Part shown: positions 12,591 through 20,153 of the stretch, one piece after another
Layout: each line of letters begins with the position of its first letter
Position numbering within the stretch: the stretch's first letter is position 1
Source of the DNA: Gemmatimonadales bacterium
GTDB lineage: Bacteria; Gemmatimonadota; Gemmatimonadetes; Palauibacterales; Palauibacteraceae
DNA: 47,197 nucleotides
Direction of reading: 5' to 3'
NCBI GenBank assembly: GCA_009838765.1
Contig: VXQX01000045.1
Coordinates: 1-47,197 of the forward strand
Made by a program: the position numbers and the translations under genes
Notes under the pieces: generated by a model
What the model was told of the DNA's origin: nothing
Database searches by the model: none
What the model saw: only the letters and a program-made list of their open reading frames with translations

Positions 12591-12932
12591 ATGGCCTCAC
12601 GCTGGGTCGGTCTCGCGCTGGGACTCTGGTTCCTGGGCGCTCCGTTCATCTGGGGATACCCGTTCGGTTTCTTGTGGTGGCACAGCGTGGTGCTCGGCGG
12701 TTCCATCCTCGTCGTCACCATCACCTTCAACCTCGGCATCAACCGGATCAGCGGCTGGGGCCTCATCGCCCTCGGCGCCTACAGCATGCTGTCGCCCTTC
12801 ATCCACGGGTATCTCGCCAACGCACAGGCCCTGTTCAACGACCTCATCTTCGGCGTCATCACCGTGGGCACCGGCACCGCGATGGGCGGGGCGGGAATCG
12901 AACACTCCGACGAGGCGCCCAGCGCCGCCTGA
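12591..12932 (+). CDS. SPW-repeat membrane protein
   Basis: A 113-residue integral membrane protein with four hydrophobic helices. It begins MASRWVGLALGLWFLGAPFIWGY, the W...LGLWF..APF pattern of SPW-repeat proteins, and NRISGWGLIALGAYSMLSPFIHGY gives a second, weaker copy. Family members are small and of unknown role. GAGAGG at 12581-12586 places the start at 12591 rather than at 12516, where the open frame begins. It follows copA by about 110 bases on the same strand and may be read through or have its own promoter; a copper link is not shown. Confidence 0.75.
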   Translation: MASRWVGLALGLWFLGAPFIWGYPFGFLWWHSVVLGGSILVVTITFNLGINRISGWGLIALGAYSMLSPFIHGYLANAQALFNDLIFGVITVGTGTAMGGAGIEHSDEAPSAA

Positions 12933-12967
12933 CCCCGAGGACGTTCCCGCGGGCACTTCACCTCCGC

Positions 12968-14170
12968 CTAGCAGCCCGCGGACCCGGTCCATTCCTCCAC
13001 CACGAAGCCTTCGATGGTGTGGATTCCCAGTTCGTTGAGCCGCACACCCCAGATCGTGTCCCGCAGGACTTCGCTTGGGGTGAACAGGCGCGGTAGGAGA
13101 ACGTCGGAGGGTGGAGGGATCTCCACGGCGTCGTCGACCCTCCGGAGCGTCCATACTCTCCAGCGGCTGTGCTCCCGCCGATCCGCTTCGAGCAGTATGG
13201 ACTCCGGATCCAACCGTGCCCACACGCGGCCATCCGACATGAACTGAAGGTCATGCACGGCTGGATGCCGCTCCGGTACGGGCAGGAGGTTTCTGAGATC
13301 GAACTCCTCCTGACGTGCCTCCGGGAAGAACCTCGAGAAGAACGCATCCACCTCCTGCTCCGTGATTCTCGGCCCACGCAGGGAGTCCCGGATCGCACCG
13401 ACCACGTCGCCGACTCCGTCGAGCAGGACGATCTCTAGCCGCCTTCCTCCGACCGACACCGCCGCCAGCCCTCCGCAGGCCGCACTCACATCCGCGTGTG
13501 GAGGCGCATCGAACGGTCGGATGAACGCGGACACGCTCATCGACCTTCCATCGCCCGACCACACTCCAACGGGACCCCACGGCGGCACGTGGCGGACGGT
13601 GTCGATCGCATCGGAGTCGAAGTGCTCGAGTTCGATGGCGGTCGGCGGTTCAGCATCCTCTGCCGGTGGGTTCATCGCACCCAGGGCGACTCCGGAGATC
13701 ACGAGCCGCCGATGGCCCAGGTCAAACACGTCGCGCGCCATCCTGCCGGGCCGCTGCTCCACCGCGATGGTCTCCCCTACTTCGGCGTCCGGTCGAAACC
13801 GCGTCAGGCGTCGCGCGATCCGATCCCACACCGTCGCGCCGCCCGTGATGTTCGGGGACAGACTCAGCGGCAGCCGAAACTCCCCGGGGCCATCGCCCTC
13901 CCGTCCAACCGCGTACACGCTGTCGGGTGTGCGAATCACGATACGTAAGTTGCCCGCGTCGAGAATCCAGAGATCATCGCCGACACGACTCACATGTTCC
14001 GGCCGGAACAACGGCCCCGCGGTTTCGGCCTCCGTCAATTGCCGCACACGAGTCGCAGTCACGACCGGAAGCGTTCTCGCCGTCCCGACGGCCTCGGCGC
14101 CGCCGTCACAGCCCGCGACCCCGAACGTGACCGTGCAGACGAGCCCAATAGGTCCACTCTTCGTGAACAC
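12968..14170 (-). CDS. six-bladed beta-propeller lipoprotein
   Basis: A 400-residue exported lipoprotein. The N-terminus has a short hydrophobic segment ending in the lipobox FGVAGC. The rest is beta-rich with NHL/6-bladed propeller spacing. Blade signatures include VGDDLWILDAGNLRIVIR followed by GREGDGPGEFRLP, the GxGPGEF turn typical of this family. The last blade carries IWGVRLNELGIHTIEGF. Such proteins are very common in Gemmatimonadota and Bacteroidota; their ligands are mostly unknown. It is the last intact member of a same-strand run of propeller genes and pieces. It starts 35 bases after the stop of a carboxypeptidase-regulatory-like fragment. Confidence 0.82.
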   Translation of the reverse strand: MFTKSGPIGLVCTVTFGVAGCDGGAEAVGTARTLPVVTATRVRQLTEAETAGPLFRPEHVSRVGDDLWILDAGNLRIVIRTPDSVYAVGREGDGPGEFRLPLSLSPNITGGATVWDRIARRLTRFRPDAEVGETIAVEQRPGRMARDVFDLGHRRLVISGVALGAMNPPAEDAEPPTAIELEHFDSDAIDTVRHVPPWGPVGVWSGDGRSMSVSAFIRPFDAPPHADVSAACGGLAAVSVGGRRLEIVLLDGVGDVVGAIRDSLRGPRITEQEVDAFFSRFFPEARQEEFDLRNLLPVPERHPAVHDLQFMSDGRVWARLDPESILLEADRREHSRWRVWTLRRVDDAVEIPPPSDVLLPRLFTPSEVLRDTIWGVRLNELGIHTIEGFVVEEWTGSAGC

Positions 14171-14205
14171 TCCGACGAGGCGCTCGGCGCCACCCGACTG
14201 GGCGG

Positions 14206-14520
14206 TCAGTTGTCGCAGCGGCGTAGATCGCGACCGGAGCGGTCTTCTTGCTCGAGGACGAGGAGGACGCGGGCCTGTCGCGTCTCCGAGACGACGACCC
14301 TCGGCGTCGGCGACCCGAAGCCGCCGCAGTCGGCCCGCACCTGGTACGCGCCGGGCGGCAGGTCCTCCATCGCGAAGCGGCCGGCAGCATCGGTCACGAC
14401 TCGGACGTCGGTGCCGACCAGGATGACGGGCACGGCCGGGAACCCCCGCCCCGTGTTTCCGTTCACGACCCGCCCGGCGACCGATCCCGGCATCGTGACG
14501 GGGACGACCAGACGCGCCAC
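14206..14520 (-). CDS. carboxypeptidase-regulatory-like domain, N-terminally truncated
   Basis: A 104-residue piece holding one complete beta-sandwich of the carboxypeptidase-regulatory/CnaB type: GSVAGRVVNGNTGRGFPAVP, then VTDAAGRFAMEDLPPGAYQV, then a last strand and the tail LEQEDRSGRDLRRCDN. The domain-like sequence continues in frame upstream of the ATG (AEPGEVARLVVPV), into the coding region of the truncated propeller in another frame. It has no signal peptide of its own. It therefore looks like the 3' end of a longer gene whose front was lost. It could still be translated by reinitiation. The same tail recurs as a relic at 16165. Confidence 0.55.
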   Translation of the reverse strand: MARLVVPVTMPGSVAGRVVNGNTGRGFPAVPVILVGTDVRVVTDAAGRFAMEDLPPGAYQVRADCGGFGSPTPRVVVSETRQARVLLVLEQEDRSGRDLRRCDN

Positions 14521-14924
14521 CTCACCGGGTTCGGCACGGAGAGTATGCGATCGTCGGAGACCGCCATCGCCAACGGAGACTCAGCCTCGCCCGGCCCCTC
14601 TCCGTGAGGCACGAATGCGGCTTCCAGCGAACCGGATGTCGTGAAGACGCGCACGTACGGCGGTGCCTGGTCGAGCACGACGACGAAACGTCCATCCGGG
14701 GTGAGATGGGCGTCACGGATTCGGGTGAAACCTTCCCCCTCCGAGGCGGGGTTTATCGCCGCGCCGATACGAACAGCCGAGTCGAGCAGGCGCGCCATGG
14801 ACACGGAGACATCGACTGCATCCCGGTCGGCCGCGAGCTCAGACCCGTCGGGCGCGCGGTCGCCGCCACACGCCAGAAGGCCAACAAGCGCGGCGATCCT
14901 GCAGCGTACGTACGCATCGCCCAA
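14463..14924 (-). pseudogene. truncated propeller lipoprotein fused out of frame to a regulatory-like domain
   Basis: The start is a TTG at 14924 with AAGGAG about 8 bases upstream, giving a lipoprotein signal (IAALVGLLACGG). A first propeller blade follows (FTRIRDAHLTPDGRFVVVLDQA, PHGEGPGEAESPLAMAVSDDRI). The propeller then stops abruptly. After VPNPVRWRVWSSP the frame ends at 14463, while the neighbouring frame becomes the carboxypeptidase-regulatory-like domain. Five blades are missing, so the simplest reading is an internal deletion joining two genes with a frame change. The 153 residues might still be exported, but a single blade cannot close a propeller. Confidence 0.6.
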
Positions 14925-16163
14925 TCGCTGCTCTCCTTGCCAGACGTTCCCGCGGGAACGCGTGCTACTCCGGCTCGAGGCCCAGTGCGACCTGATCCTA
15001 TCGGATGATTCGGAGACGCACGACGTACTGGAGGTCAAGCGCATCCCGTGAGACGCCGATGACCGTCTCTTCCCCGAACACCGGCGGGGGTTTCGTGTCG
15101 AGGAGAACCGGAGAGGCGATCTTGCCGATGTAGACCCCGTACTCGTCAAAGACGTCCCATTCCCGCACGGCTCCCGTTTCCGTAGCGACCCAGATCCACC
15201 CATTCGCACCGGAGTGAATGGAGCGGAGCGAGAGCTTGTGGTCCGGCAGTCTGTCCGGCGGCACGCCGGTCGCGGCGGCGATCTGTTGCCGATCATGACC
15301 AACAAGCGGGGCCGGGGGGCGACGCAACCGTATGGTCTTTGTGGTGTCACCCCGATACGTGACTCTGTGCAAGTCGAAGACCGCCTGGTTCGCCAACCAA
15401 ACGTCCCCATCGGCAGCCACGTCGAGCGTAACGGCTGGCGAATGGGGGACGGGGGATATCTCCGTAAGGTTACCGGCAGTGCGCGAATACGTCTCGACCC
15501 GCCGGTCGAGGTGTGGGATCCGGAACGTATCGGCAGCGGCGAGTGCCTCGCCGCTGCCGTGTCGGACCAGGAATGTCGAGGGCGAGGTCGGCAGCGTCCC
15601 GTCCGGCACCCTGAACGGCACGGCCCAGCGATGCACGCGCCCGCCGTTGTCGACCCAGAGCGGCCACGGGAACCGCGCGCTCGTGGCGGGTCCCAGAGAG
15701 AGCGATGCCCGAACCGCACCGGTCGAGTCGAACAGCGTCAACCGGTGCGCGAGGGCATCCATGGCCCTAGAGGGAGTGCCGCGACCGCGCGATGCCAGCC
15801 AGCATGGCGAACTCCCCGGGCCCGCTCCCGTCCCGACCGAGGGTCTGCAGACATGCACCGCTGGGCGAAAAGATGCGAATAGTGTTCGCACCCAGATCGG
15901 CCACATAGATCCGTCCCGGACCGTCAACAAAAAGGGAGACTACACTGGCGAAGGCGTCGCAGTCGCCCTCCACCGATCCGATGCGCAACTCCTCGACCAG
16001 CGTCGGGGCGCGGGCTGCGCGCGACGAAGGCGAGTCGGGACTGGAGATGACGACCCGTCCGCCGCGGAGCGTGTCCACCCACACGCCGTCCGCACGGGCC
16101 GACGCCTCCTCGCAACCCGAGACGGAGACGGCCCCACAGATCACACCGACCCAACAGCGGAGT

Positions 16164-16182
16164 GTCAGTTGTCGCAGCGGCG
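16164..16182. repeat. 19-bp repeat, second copy at 14205-14223
   Basis: GTCAGTTGTCGCAGCGGCG occurs exactly at 14205-14223 and 16164-16182. Similarity continues for about 40 more bases into both tails at a lower level. It marks the duplicated 3' ends described above. Confidence 0.75.
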
Positions 16183-16237
16183 CACCTCGCGGCCGGATCG
16201 ATCTTCGGGCTCCAGGACCCGGCTCCTGCCCCCCCAC
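16165..16237 (-). pseudogene. relic of a regulatory-like domain tail
   Basis: In the frame ending with the stop at 16167-16165 the translation reads RVLEPEDRSGREVRRCDN. This is nearly the same as the tail EQEDRSGRDLRRCDN of the fragment at 14206. Upstream of this tail the frame is only Arg/Gly-rich and shows no domain. It lies between two propeller genes, just as the other copy does, and suggests an old tandem duplication of a [regulatory-domain gene + propeller gene] unit. Confidence 0.5.
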
Positions 16238-16297
16238 CGCCGCCGGCGGCCCGCCAGTCCCAGGGAACGGAAGCCGCGCGCCGACAGCCGCGCGCGT

Positions 16298-17323
16298 CTA
16301 CCTCGCACAGGGAGAGCCGCCCGCTGGACGCAGCGGCCGCAAGGCGATCATGAACGCTTCGGGTTCGATTACGCGGGTGCGGCGACCGTTGATTTGGCGG
16401 ACGCTGACACCGCGTTCGTACACGATGGCGCTATCACCGTGCACACCCATGATGGATCGGTGACGCTCACGGCTTTCGTCCACCAGGAGCGAGTAGCAAC
16501 CCGTGGCCGGATCGATGATGGCGGCGGCGAACTCGAGGCGCATGTGGTTGACGAACGTAAGCACCAAGTGGCCCTGGCCGTCGTGTGAAAGGCTCCTGTA
16601 GGAACTCGTGTAGCGCCCGCCATCGGGTCTGGACGCCCGCCACTCCGTCACGGCCTCGGCGACCTCCGGGGGGACGGGCACGGTGATCGACTCACCCGCG
16701 GTCGAATGACCGACGATGGTCCCTTCCGCGATGAAGTACGCCATGTCGTCGAAGCAGACCCCGTCGGCGGCGAGTAAAGATCTTGAGCGGCCGGCGTCCT
16801 GCAGGGGACGCTGACCAGCGCCGAGGCGCGCTCCACCGGGCCCCCGAAGCGCCCCGTGCAGGAGCGGAACGACCGGGTCGTCACCCATGGCGCATACGTA
16901 TTTTGCGAAATTCAAGCCCGGATTCCAGGTCCAGGCCGAATCGGCGGCCACGGTCCAATAATTGACGCGCAAACCATCGGACACGAGCAGGCCACCATTG
17001 GCCGCCGCCACATCCTGGACCATGTTGCGCACCTCGCCCGGGCCGTCGCCGCGTCCCCTGCCGTACGTGCCGACGACGGTTCCGTCCGCGATCGAGAACG
17101 CGACCACGAGCCCAGGCTCACCGACCTCGGCGACGTAGATCCGCCTTCGTTCATGATCCACCTCGAACACATGCGTCAGAAAGGCGCGCGTCCAGTCGTT
17201 CACCACCTCCCGTCCCGCCTGGTGGTCCACTGACAACCGCTGCTGCCCCGCCAGGGGTAGCGAGGAAAGGCATAACCAGAGGGCGACGAGGAGTCGAAGG
17301 GCTCTCCCCTTGTCGGTGCCCAT
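16298..17323 (-). CDS. exported beta-propeller protein
   Basis: A 341-residue protein with a normal type I signal peptide (LLVALWLCLSSLPLAGQQ) and no lipobox, unlike its neighbours. Blades are visible at VFEVDHERRRIYVAEVGEPG with GRGRGDGPGEVRNMV, at ANGGLLVSDGLRVNYWTV, and at SLSHDGQGHLVLTFVNHMRLE. The C-terminus is short and Arg-rich. Length and blade spacing suggest a six-bladed propeller, though the central part is divergent. It starts 4 bases after the stop of the small secreted gene, so the two are cotranscribed. Ligand unknown; possible roles are substrate binding at the envelope or a scaffold. Confidence 0.75.
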   Translation of the reverse strand: MGTDKGRALRLLVALWLCLSSLPLAGQQRLSVDHQAGREVVNDWTRAFLTHVFEVDHERRRIYVAEVGEPGLVVAFSIADGTVVGTYGRGRGDGPGEVRNMVQDVAAANGGLLVSDGLRVNYWTVAADSAWTWNPGLNFAKYVCAMGDDPVVPLLHGALRGPGGARLGAGQRPLQDAGRSRSLLAADGVCFDDMAYFIAEGTIVGHSTAGESITVPVPPEVAEAVTEWRASRPDGGRYTSSYRSLSHDGQGHLVLTFVNHMRLEFAAAIIDPATGCYSLLVDESRERHRSIMGVHGDSAIVYERGVSVRQINGRRTRVIEPEAFMIALRPLRPAGGSPCAR

Positions 17324-17327
17324 CGAT

Positions 17328-17846
17328 CTAGTAGACGAAGGAATGGGAATCGCCTGCTGCTACTCCGTTTTGCCCGCACCCGGAGTAGTCGCAAAGAACC
17401 GTTACACTGCCCAGTGGACCAACATCGTACCATTGTTCCGTCAGGCGACAGGCTTCTATAGCCGAGGGGGCTCCGGCGTTCGCCGCGCCATTCGGATCCG
17501 GGATGCGTGACTGAGCCGGCGCCGCCGGCTCGGCCAGGAGCGTGGTGCAGAGGAGCACCTCCTCTGTCGTAAGCAGCGAAGGCGCCGAGGGGTGGCCAGA
17601 TTTGACGGTTCGGGACGGCGCGTTCTCGATGAACCCGGACATCGACGCTCCCTGGATTTCTCCGACCGGGGCCTGACCGGCTACCGCATCGGGGAGTACC
17701 GTAAGCACTACTCCGAGCGACAGCACCAACACGCTACGCCAGCTCGATCCTGCGTGGGCGGCCCTATGCGGCACAAGCGAAGCTACGAGCGCTGCGACCA
17801 GAGCGCACGGAACAGGCCTGTAGCGTCGTGTTCTTACGTTCGACAT
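17328..17846 (-). CDS. small secreted protein of unknown function
   Basis: A 172-residue protein. The ATG at 17846 is chosen because GGAGG lies six bases upstream; the open frame runs on to 17945. It has a signal peptide (CALVAALVASLVPHRAAHA) and a second hydrophobic stretch (VLVLSLGVVLTVLP), so it may be anchored. The mature part is Pro/Ala/Ser-rich and ends with a cysteine-containing region, GSVTVLCDYSGCGQNG, and a hydrophobic tail SHSFVY. I do not recognise the family. It sits 65 bases downstream of the AraC-like regulator and 4 bases before a propeller gene, so it may belong to a unit controlled by that regulator. Confidence 0.6.
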   Translation of the reverse strand: MSNVRTRRYRPVPCALVAALVASLVPHRAAHAGSSWRSVLVLSLGVVLTVLPDAVAGQAPVGEIQGASMSGFIENAPSRTVKSGHPSAPSLLTTEEVLLCTTLLAEPAAPAQSRIPDPNGAANAGAPSAIEACRLTEQWYDVGPLGSVTVLCDYSGCGQNGVAAGDSHSFVY

Positions 17847-17911
17847 CTCTGCCTCCCGGACCCAGAGGGACGCTCGCCCCGGAACTCGTTCCCGAGGCTC
17901 GTACATGGACG

Positions 17912-18793
17912 CTACGGGGCAGCAACCGGCGTCGGGTAGATGCAATATCGGTGAATCTTTGACGAAATCGGTGTAGTGCTGGCCGCATGTGGTTTCAGGC
18001 GTTCCGTGAACCGAAGTCCGCTACCGGTCTTGGGGTCGCCGGGCCGCGTCGGCCGCAAGTACTGCTCCACGAGCGCTTTCAGCAGGCGGTCAGGAGGGAC
18101 CTTCTCCAGTTGCACCAGCGTGCACCCGCGCCAGCGTTTCGACTTGCGCTGAAGCGTCTCGCGGGCGAAGCCGAGGTGCATGCTGACGCTGTTCCAGTTC
18201 AGGCCCGAGGAACGAAGTTGCCTGGCTCTCAGGATCACCAGGGCCGCCAAGAATCGGCTCAGGGTCGTCCTCCGATCGTGCCATGTACTGAACGCCTTCG
18301 AGAGTGTGATCGGCGAGTAGCGAACGGCGGCGGCCAACTCGTTCACGCTACGCACGGGCCGGTCGGTGGCGGCGCGGAGGCTGTACGGCAGCGCGGTTCG
18401 AAGGGCGGGGGGCAGCGTCGCTTCCCCGGCTTGCTCGGCCAGGCGCAGCAGCGGGACCGACCCGCGGGCCGCTTCGATCTCGAGCGGGAGTTCGGTCTGC
18501 AGGTCCGCGAACCAGGCGACGGCGGACGCTTTGACGTCGCTCAGCCGGCGAACGGCTTCGGGCTCGCGATCCGTGACGAGGATGAGGGGAATCCACAGCC
18601 TCTTCCGTTCGATGTCCCCCAGGAGTTCGATCGTCTCCGCCGGGATGGGATGGCGGCAACCGAGAATCAGACACTCCACCGGGTCATCGCCATTCACAAA
18701 CTGAGCGGCATTCGTCACGATCCGCGCGGCGCTGCCGGCCGCTCGCGCGATCAGTGCCGCGTCGTTCTTCGAGCCCGCCAGAACGTTGATCAT
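17912..18793 (-). CDS. AraC-like regulator with receiver-like N-terminal domain
   Basis: A 293-residue transcription factor. The ATG at 18793 has a strong ribosome site (GGAGGAGG, five bases upstream). Residues 1-120 look like a response-regulator fold without a clear phosphoacceptor Asp: alternating strands such as CLILGCRHP and WIPLILVTD with helices between. The C-terminal half has the two helix-turn-helix units of AraC proteins: SVNELAAAVRYSPITLSKAFSTW, then SGLNWNSVSMHLGFARETLQRKSKRWRG. It heads a same-strand run of secreted and propeller genes and is a natural candidate to control them. The region upstream has an AT patch (TTGATG at 18856-18851, TAATAG near 18836) that may hold its promoter. 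The ligand or partner is unknown. Confidence 0.68.
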   Translation of the reverse strand: MINVLAGSKNDAALIARAAGSAARIVTNAAQFVNGDDPVECLILGCRHPIPAETIELLGDIERKRLWIPLILVTDREPEAVRRLSDVKASAVAWFADLQTELPLEIEAARGSVPLLRLAEQAGEATLPPALRTALPYSLRAATDRPVRSVNELAAAVRYSPITLSKAFSTWHDRRTTLSRFLAALVILRARQLRSSGLNWNSVSMHLGFARETLQRKSKRWRGCTLVQLEKVPPDRLLKALVEQYLRPTRPGDPKTGSGLRFTERLKPHAASTTPISSKIHRYCIYPTPVAAP

Positions 18794-18947: not shown

Positions 18948-20153
18948 CTAGGCTCCGAACTTCGCGAGGCGACCGGCGCTGGCCATCGCGAGGCGCATGA
19001 GATCGCAGCCTCGGACGCGGCCGTGGGCTCCGGCGCGGCACGCGGTCTCGCCGAAGGTGGTGGCGTCGTCGCTGCGGGCCGGGGGGCCGTGGAGGAGGAA
19101 GGGCACTGGGTGCCAACTGTGGCTGCTCATGACGGAGGGGGTCGAGTGGTCGCCGGTCACGAGGATGACGTCGGGACCCGCATCGACGAGGTCGGGCACG
19201 ATGGCGTCCGCTTCCTCGATGGCGGCTACCTTGCGGTCGAAGTCGCCGTCTTCTCCGGCCTTGTCGGGAGGCTTGAAGTGGAGGAAGAAGAAATCGTAGT
19301 CGGCGAACCGCGCCTTGAGGGCGTCGACGAGCGGGGGGGCGCCCGCGGGCACCGTGCGCGCGTCCATGCCGACGAGCCGCGCGACGCCGCGGTACATGGG
19401 GTACGCGGCGGCGGCGGCGGCCCGCATGCCGAATACGTCGGGGAAGCGGGGCCAGCCGGGCTGGCTGGAGACGCCGCGCAGGAGCGCCATGTTCGCCTGC
19501 GTCCGGCCGGCGAGCCGTTCGGCGGCGGCTTCGAGCCACGCGGCGAGGAGCCGGGCGGTCGGCTCGGATGCCGCGTTCCGCGCGACGGGGGCCCGGATCG
19601 GCAGGCCCGGCCGGCCGGGATCGGTGTCGTTGACCGCGTCGCCCGCGGGGGCCTCGGGGTGCAGGACGAGGACGAAGCGGTGTTCCTTCACGTGACGCAC
19701 GGTACAGCGGGCGCCGTCGAGTTCGATGGCGTTGAGCCGGGCGGCAAGGGGGGCGGCTTCCGCGCACGGGATGCGGCCCGCGCGGCGGTCGGCCACCCGG
19801 CCCCGGGCGTCGAGGGTACAGAAGTTGGCGCGCACGGCGATGTCGCCCGGTCCGAGCGGGAATTCGATGCCGAGGGCCTCGAGCACGCCGCGGCCGGTCT
19901 CGTACACGAGGGGATCGTAGCCGAACAGGGCCAGGTGGCCGGGACCGCTGCCCGGGGTGATGCCCGGCGCAACGGGGTCGTGGAGGCCGCACGTCCCGGC
20001 GCGGGCGAGTTCGTCGAGGTGCGGCGTGCGGGCGGCCTCGAGTTCGGTCGGCCCCCCGGGCTCGCGCGGCAGCCCGCCCAGCCCGTCGAGCACGTAGAGC
20101 AGCACCTTGCCGCCCCCGCCTCCGGCGAGACGGGCGATCCGGTTGAGTTCCAT
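18948..20153 (-). CDS. apgM: 2,3-bisphosphoglycerate-independent phosphoglycerate mutase, archaeal type
   Basis: A 401-residue glycolytic enzyme of the alkaline-phosphatase superfamily that interconverts 3- and 2-phosphoglycerate. Metal and active-site landmarks are LYVLDGLGG (D23), the phosphoacceptor Ser in ITPGSGPGHLALFGYDP (S69), FFFLHFKPPDKAGEDGDFD (metal-binding HxKxxD), and the late VTGDHSTPSVMSSHSWHPVPFLLHG metal ligands. The length and order match the short archaeal/bacterial ApgM branch rather than GpmI (about 510 residues). The ATG at 20153 starts the conserved part; the frame upstream of it is Arg-rich spill-over. It diverges from the ccm genes. Confidence 0.92.
   Translation of the reverse strand: MELNRIARLAGGGGGKVLLYVLDGLGGLPREPGGPTELEAARTPHLDELARAGTCGLHDPVAPGITPGSGPGHLALFGYDPLVYETGRGVLEALGIEFPLGPGDIAVRANFCTLDARGRVADRRAGRIPCAEAAPLAARLNAIELDGARCTVRHVKEHRFVLVLHPEAPAGDAVNDTDPGRPGLPIRAPVARNAASEPTARLLAAWLEAAAERLAGRTQANMALLRGVSSQPGWPRFPDVFGMRAAAAAAYPMYRGVARLVGMDARTVPAGAPPLVDALKARFADYDFFFLHFKPPDKAGEDGDFDRKVAAIEEADAIVPDLVDAGPDVILVTGDHSTPSVMSSHSWHPVPFLLHGPPARSDDATTFGETACRAGAHGRVRGCDLMRLAMASAGRLAKFGA

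Follow-up and report, generated by a model that had tools for sequence, protein, structure and literature searches.

Several described systems combine elements that recur in the locus analyzed here. In methylamine dehydrogenase (MauB/MauA), a propeller is associated with a small cysteine-rich cofactor subunit, in which two tryptophans form the cofactor and which is matured by MauE and MauD. The small secreted NVEALA proteins (PF14055) of Bacteroidota adjoin 6-bladed propellers. The PF17170 (DUF5128) propellers have a solved example in BF0058 of Bacteroides fragilis (4raa), and response regulators with an AraC-type output join a receiver domain of (beta-alpha)5 fold to AraC helices.

Our locus is a gene block in a window of 47,197 nucleotides (the whole stretch of DNA that was analyzed) from the genome of Candidatus Palauibacter (Gemmatimonadota), a sponge-associated bacterium. 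Some related sites share with mauB/mauA/mauE/mauD a propeller, a small exported Cys-rich protein, MauE, and a thioredoxin-like protein. However, the propellers are related to NHL and 6-bladed ones, Trp is not conserved, and no homology to the mauB/mauA subunits was found. As in the NVEALA case, a small exported Cys-bearing protein is paired with a propeller, whereas this genome has no PF14055 match (the control, Bacteroides ihuae, has one) and none was obtained among ten small proteins. The N-terminal piece of a frameshifted propeller gene passes the PF17170 cut-off (23.6 bits, cut-off 22.9), and the propeller encoded at 12968-14170 matches the fold of 4raa with E 1.1e-7; in contrast to that family, the two intact propellers of the window (16298-17323, 12968-14170) have no Pfam match and the propellers have small secreted proteins as partners, to which a regulator is added in this genus. 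This regulator has the receiver fold and predicted AraC-type helices like those of the response regulators named above, but its family lacks the phospho-acceptor Asp (residues 44-47) and the conserved Lys (92-96) in 23 of 23 aligned copies. In the open-access literature searched, no description of a module of regulator, Cys-rich protein, and propeller was found; nothing was retrieved on NVEALA, on "6-bladed beta-propeller" with Gemmatimonad, or on MauE+MauD+propeller+cysteine-rich, and queries for DUF5128/PF17170/BF3526 returned only unrelated work.

Organization of the block

All parts of the block were located on the minus strand between apgM and SPW-copA, and the inventory of the first-pass annotation was borne out: a single strand carries genes for a regulator, a small secreted protein, and propellers, of which two are intact and one is frameshifted, plus a chimera. 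On the right, the block is flanked by the phosphoglycerate mutase gene apgM (18948-20153, minus strand; PF10143, 2.5e-44), followed inwards by the regulator (17912-18793; 293 aa) and a small protein of 172 aa (17328-17846) with a hydrophobic signal segment and then 4 Cys. The left flank is formed by an SPW-repeat protein (12591-12932, plus strand; PF03779, 7.5e-12) after copA. A gap of a few bases, as had been described for the intact genes, occurs only between the small protein and the propeller at 16298-17323; the other gaps measure about 35-75 bp. Among the block ORFs examined in this genome there was no integrase or transposase Pfam match, and defence-system models did not match any of 7 proteins. 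A scan yielded 0 promoter-like sites and 3 terminator-like sites (3.4 expected).

Genome-wide, 71 propeller matches were counted, and a predicted N-terminal lipobox pattern occurs in 22 of 36 aligned propellers. The intact propeller at 16298-17323 (341 aa; propeller HMM 120 bits) has an export signal and no lipobox by eye; its nearest relative, 43% identical over 267 aa, lies at a different site in G009 (L025). The intact 6-bladed propeller at 12968-14170, a predicted lipoprotein (propeller HMM 243 bits), was modelled by AF2 with moderate confidence (pLDDT 68) and matches NHL-propeller folds with E 4.5e-9. It is under purifying selection, with a dN/dS of 0.19-0.23 compared to 0.18 for apgM.

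The frameshifted gene (14998-16237), a 6-bladed propeller and predicted lipoprotein gene, is split over two frames at 15767-16237 and 14998-15930. At L059 and L070 it is a single continuous ORF of about 449 aa with 77-79% identity, which supports a frameshift; an assembly error in the MAG may be the cause instead. The chimera (14206-14923) joins the first approximately 127 residues of a propeller (14535-14923; 95% over 127 aa to G003 L069:12587-12207) to the C-terminal 104 residues of a CarboxypepD_reg protein (14206-14520; PF13620, 4.6e-14). The latter is intact in relatives, with about 480 aa, and the chimeric part matches its end in L057 at 93%.

Short repeats accompany these genes. The 3' end of SPW (12900-12933, family D1) is repeated with 88% at 14165-14198, overlapping the start of the propeller at 12968-14170, and copies related to this second one are present in G003 and G011. 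A remnant of the CarboxypepD_reg gene tail (16164-16218, family D3) is 84% identical to 14205-14259. The 14-bp palindrome GTTCCCGCGGGAAC (14946-14959), which has 58 exact sites in the genome (0 for the reversed-pattern control), separates the chimera from the frameshifted propeller; a copy with one mismatch is found at 12943-12956, between the propeller at 12968-14170 and SPW. At 14946-14959 the flanking sequence switches between genomes, and some slot junctions coincide with the palindrome. Since it is widespread and intergenic in the genome, it may simply mark gene ends. A role as RNA terminator is not supported, as it folds no better than shuffles (z-scores -0.51, 0.49, -1.52, and 0.32).

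The impression that the block is less GC-rich than its surroundings proved correct (66.7% versus 70.7%); it ranks 4th lowest among 414 overlapping windows of equal length. GC3 amounts to 0.67-0.80 in six of seven block stretches and to 0.88 in the CarboxypepD_reg remnant, versus 0.899 +/- 0.037 in the flank genes (n=31). Low GC3 is not peculiar to the block, because the remaining propellers of the same genome are also low (0.798).

A variable slot between apgM and SPW

The gene apgM was found in 17 of 17 genomes of the genus. An accessory island between housekeeping flanks had been suggested, and comparison of these relatives upholds it: apgM and SPW are directly joined, without the block, in four genomes (G004, G006, G012, and G013), nine further ones readable end to end carry 1.7-12.2 kb of differing cargo, and in the remaining four the slot is broken by contig ends. 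The first two genes behind the regulator, those of the small protein and of the propeller at 16298-17323, are unmatched at this site in every other genome compared. In G003 and G009, unrelated small Cys proteins follow regulators that are 84-86% identical, and tandem propeller paralogues of G003 are about 49% identical. Individual genes are degraded by a frameshift and a deletion chimera, as the view of a decaying block had it, but the notion that the block is being lost is not supported in this form, since cargo is also gained and exchanged. Nor is the block simply decaying, because selection on the propeller at 12968-14170 is purifying, much as on apgM.

The regulator family

The regulator matches HTH_18 with E 8.7e-6 and 26.4 bits, below the Pfam cut-off of 33.6 bits. 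Its AF2 model (pLDDT 80) reveals a (beta-alpha)5 arrangement at residues 1-124 and HTH helices at 129-246. Superposition of the N-terminal part on a KdpE receiver (Z 14.2, 110 aligned residues, rmsd 2.2) identifies a receiver fold.

Within the genus the regulator occupies about 13 sites. In the genome of the window, all five full-length copies lie at most 1 kb from a same-strand propeller (rough p 2e-8). Genus-wide, the count covered 42 copies that are intact or nearly so, drawn from G000 and a further 12 genomes; fragments and distant relatives were set aside, and L027 and L048 are cut by contig ends. Of these copies, 24 have a same-strand propeller and 18 a small Cys-rich ORF at a distance of at most 3 kb. 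In 18 of the 42 there is no propeller within that distance, among them those at sites G and H, which have other genes as neighbours, and two near a contig end. A regulator dedicated to propellers, as originally envisaged, is therefore only partly confirmed: it recurs near them, but with 24 of 42 copies it is not exclusive, and others adjoin different genes. As judged from gene order, short same-strand groups, mostly with a propeller and in many cases with a small, putatively exported Cys-rich protein, are headed, directly or nearly so, by a regulator that combines a receiver fold lacking the phosphorylation residues with a predicted DNA-binding domain of AraC type.

The regulator is not exclusive to the genus, as distant relatives with E < 1e-15 occur in nine genomes of other families; among the nine inspected, a propeller is close by only in L163 (G120). 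A further match on contig 487 of G301 (L169) resembles a Palauibacter contig placed in another bin.

Small secreted proteins

The small protein at 17328-17846 has no match in its own genome and falls outside the A4 family of Cys-rich secreted proteins (E 0.04, 0.5 bits against the profile), which we defined in this analysis by a spaced Cys pattern and a C-terminal C-x-G motif. A small secreted Cys ORF was found upstream of 23 of 55 propellers at regulator loci and of 6 of 32 at other G000 loci, compared to 4 of 658 genes of other kinds. C-terminal fragments of propellers and loci L057-L068 at apgM did not enter this count, in which orthologous loci are not independent.

For the A4 family, 39 loci were tested, and 26 remained after 13 matching profile rows had been set aside. 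A same-strand propeller is present at 25 of these 26 loci outside the training set, including 13 of the 14 that belong to other genera. The sole exception is L189, which we take to resemble a different known family. L200 (G436) possibly represents a contaminating contig. A predicted secreted Cys-rich family is thus encoded beside propellers, and the pair also occurs in other Gemmatimonadota families, there without the regulator. Comparison of the family with known structures gave nothing significant (best E 2). One member, L182, has no Trp at all, so a Trp-derived cofactor is not a general property of the family.

Positive selection on the small proteins was rejected, with dN/dS below 0.45 in all six pairs; at site I, values of 0.25-0.43 reveal purifying selection. 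Oxidative partner genes occur at a minority of sites and not in the window: Thioredoxin_4 (9e-9) in L014, and MauE in L036 (8.6e-16), together with a thioredoxin-like protein gene, and in L210 (9.4e-17).

Proposed function and alternative explanations

We estimate a probability of about 0.5 that the block is a filled example of a variable slot that accommodates a recurring envelope module, whose function we infer from the genes. The regulator would switch downstream genes without a histidine kinase, its dead receiver sensing through binding of a ligand or partner. The small protein would be exported and disulphide-bonded, with DsbA-like or MauE/thioredoxin-like genes accompanying some copies, and would then form a ligand/receptor pair at the surface together with the propeller, which is often a predicted lipoprotein. 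Cargo genes may be swapped or deleted when paralogues or palindromes recombine, and we propose that the frameshift and the chimera are examples of broken genes left behind in this way.

A more far-reaching scenario is tentative and somewhat doubtful: an undescribed two-gene envelope system of Gemmatimonadota, composed of an exported disulphide-rich protein and a 6-bladed propeller receptor, to which Ca. Palauibacter might have added a multi-copy, phosphorylation-independent regulator and cassette exchange at fixed slots, yielding strain-specific surface ligands in sponge hosts. Little is known about what the large family of 6-bladed propellers does, and a conserved small exported partner offers a concrete, testable candidate for binding. 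With its regulator and variable slots, this uncultured marine group could serve as a model for the turnover and diversification of cassettes at fixed positions in the chromosome, perhaps where the bacteria meet animal hosts.

Ordinary paralogue expansion, i.e., a tandem cluster among the dozens of 6-bladed propellers of Gemmatimonadota with a hitch-hiking regulator and an incidental small protein, would agree with the number of propeller matches in the genome and with the tandem paralogues of G003. We consider it unlikely, given that regulator and Cys-rich proteins stand beside propellers far above chance, other families included. A polymorphic antagonism module, in which the small Cys-rich protein would be secreted as a toxin or bacteriocin, with the propeller as its immunity or delivery partner, is quite improbable. 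Near relatives do carry unrelated small proteins behind the same regulator, and one small protein has a defensin-like Pfam match (E 3.3e-4, below cut-off); yet the proteins searched did not match any described family of toxins, immunity proteins, or defence proteins, and the small proteins of site I evolve under purifying selection.

An amine-dehydrogenase-like enzyme, formed by the propeller and a small Cys-rich cofactor subunit, with MauE and a thioredoxin resembling MauD for its maturation, is suggested by the similar gene set, but the proteins searched lack a Pfam match to either subunit, and we regard this as very improbable. The slot for a recurring module must finally be weighed against plain decay, in which the block is a dead island in the process of loss. 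Frameshift, chimera, regulator fragments in relatives, and low GC3 would fit such an island; we nevertheless judge it distinctly unlikely, as the intact genes are under purifying selection and close relatives carry unique new cargo.

The Regulator and Its Distribution

Following up the question raised in the first-pass annotation, whether the propeller genes have a dedicated regulator, revealed a recurring module and a gene pair which also occurs beyond the genus. The window corresponds to contig C83 in a genome of 3.60 Mb and 96 contigs. Relatives of its regulator are encoded on named contigs, among them those of Candidatus Palauibacter denitrificans and of Ca. P. rhopaloidicola, and the genus is therefore Ca. 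Palauibacter, Gemmatimonadota. Sponges, corals and sediments are among the reported sources of the order's 16S sequences (PMC10469786).

A model built from 23 regulator copies comprises a (beta-alpha)5 domain (residues 1-124) and AraC-type helices (129-246). In fold, the first domain resembles receiver domains (best Z 14.2, 110 aligned, rmsd 2.2). All 23 copies lack both the phospho-acceptor Asp and the strand-5 Lys, so the regulator is not expected to act like an ordinary response regulator driven by a kinase. The window's genome carries it, as do 12 of the 16 other genomes of the genus, and none of 18 genomes from other genera of the family does; at E 1e-15, 22 of 395 phylum genomes match, 12 of which are same-genus.

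Within the genus, the regulator occupies approximately 13 chromosomal sites. A same-strand propeller is located less than 1 kb from all five full-length copies of the window's genome and within 3 kb of 24 of 42 regulators genus-wide, while no propeller was found at sites G, H, K1 and K2. Copies L042, L043, L044 and L045 lack a propeller, and their neighbours resemble P450 and FAD amine oxidase genes by eye. Near a distant relative, an ORF (L162:4628-4843) encodes a 71-aa Cys-containing peptide without signal, RiPP-like by eye. We propose a mechanism for the module with moderate confidence; no description of it was found in the open-access literature searched.

A Variable Slot between apgM and SPW

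The same-strand block observed at first pass (12968-18793) was confirmed gene by gene on the minus strand. From the apgM side, it consists of the regulator (17912-18793), a small exported protein (17328-17846), a beta-propeller protein (16298-17323), a frameshifted propeller (14998-16237), a chimera (14206-14923) and a further propeller (12968-14170), beyond which SPW and copA lie on the opposite strand. The regulator is about 37 residues longer at its C-terminus (17912-18025) than its same-site relatives, whose reading frame ends sooner or shifts. As had been perceived by eye, the block is less GC-rich than its surroundings (0.667 versus 0.707 outside). Six of the seven stretches in the block have a GC3 of 0.67-0.80 versus 0.899 in flank genes; the seventh, a CarboxypepD_reg remnant, reaches 0.88. 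Since the genome's remaining propellers average 0.798, the low GC3 is partly a trait of propeller genes.

apgM is present in all 17 same-genus genomes. In G004, G006, G012 and G013 the apgM and SPW matches end about 28-105 bp from each other, while nine genomes (G000, the window's own, G001, G003, G008, G010, G011, G014, G015 and G016) reveal gaps of 1.7 to 12.2 kb with differing gene sets; in G002, G005, G007 and G009 the slot is interrupted by contig ends. G006 has a propeller between SPW and copA instead (L066:2895-3935). The slot regulators of G000, G003 and G009 share 84-86% identity, yet each is followed by a different, unrelated small protein. Of the accessory island being lost that had been suggested, the accessory slot and the broken genes stand, but one-way loss gives way to active exchange.

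A 14-bp palindrome, GTTCCCGCGGGAAC (14946-14959), has 58 copies in the genome (reversed pattern, 0), mostly intergenic where inspected; at the slot, it separates cargo genes and precedes SPW. Two genomes may share the sequence on one side of it and differ on the other: propeller 2 and the palindrome are followed by propeller 3 in G003 and by a CarboxypepD_reg gene in G011. Such one-sided matches fit deletion or exchange via recombination near gene ends. Because unrelated gene ends carry the palindrome as well, the junctions do not prove an activity of its own. The chimera retains the first ~127 residues of a propeller and the last 104 of a CarboxypepD_reg protein; G003 has an intact CarboxypepD_reg gene preceded by a propeller, an order that explains the chimera.

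The SPW 3' end (12900-12933) is repeated (88%) at 14165-14198, at the start of propeller 12968-14170, which may therefore have entered at the SPW end of the slot. Two remnants of one CarboxypepD_reg gene's tail (16164-16218 and 14205-14259) are 84% alike, suggesting an old duplication within the block.

The Cys-Rich Protein and Propeller Pair

In a simple scan, 23 of the 55 propellers in regulator loci had a small exported Cys-rich ORF upstream, as did 6 of the 32 other propellers in the window's genome, compared with only 4 of 658 other genes. Thirteen of these proteins align as one family with six invariant Cys. The family profile matches 20 of 395 phylum and 21 of 394 class genomes. A same-strand propeller lies near 38 of 39 inspected matching loci, 25 of 26 once the 13 profile rows are set aside, and near 13 of 14 outside the genus, among which G436 may be contamination. 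L169 (G301, contig 487) and L200 (G436, contig 144), in bins of another family, resemble Palauibacter contamination. The window's small protein (17328-17846) was excluded from the family by the profile; consequently, only its position, its export signal and its Cys content assign it to the module.

A DsbA-like protein adjoins one pair and MauE-type proteins adjoin two, one of them in another family, which suggests that the pairs need disulphide formation. Apart from the two broken genes, the genes are, as judged from their sequences, functioning genes and not debris. dN/dS amounts to 0.19-0.23 for propeller 12968-14170, 0.25-0.43 for the small proteins at site I and 0.22-0.48 for the regulators.
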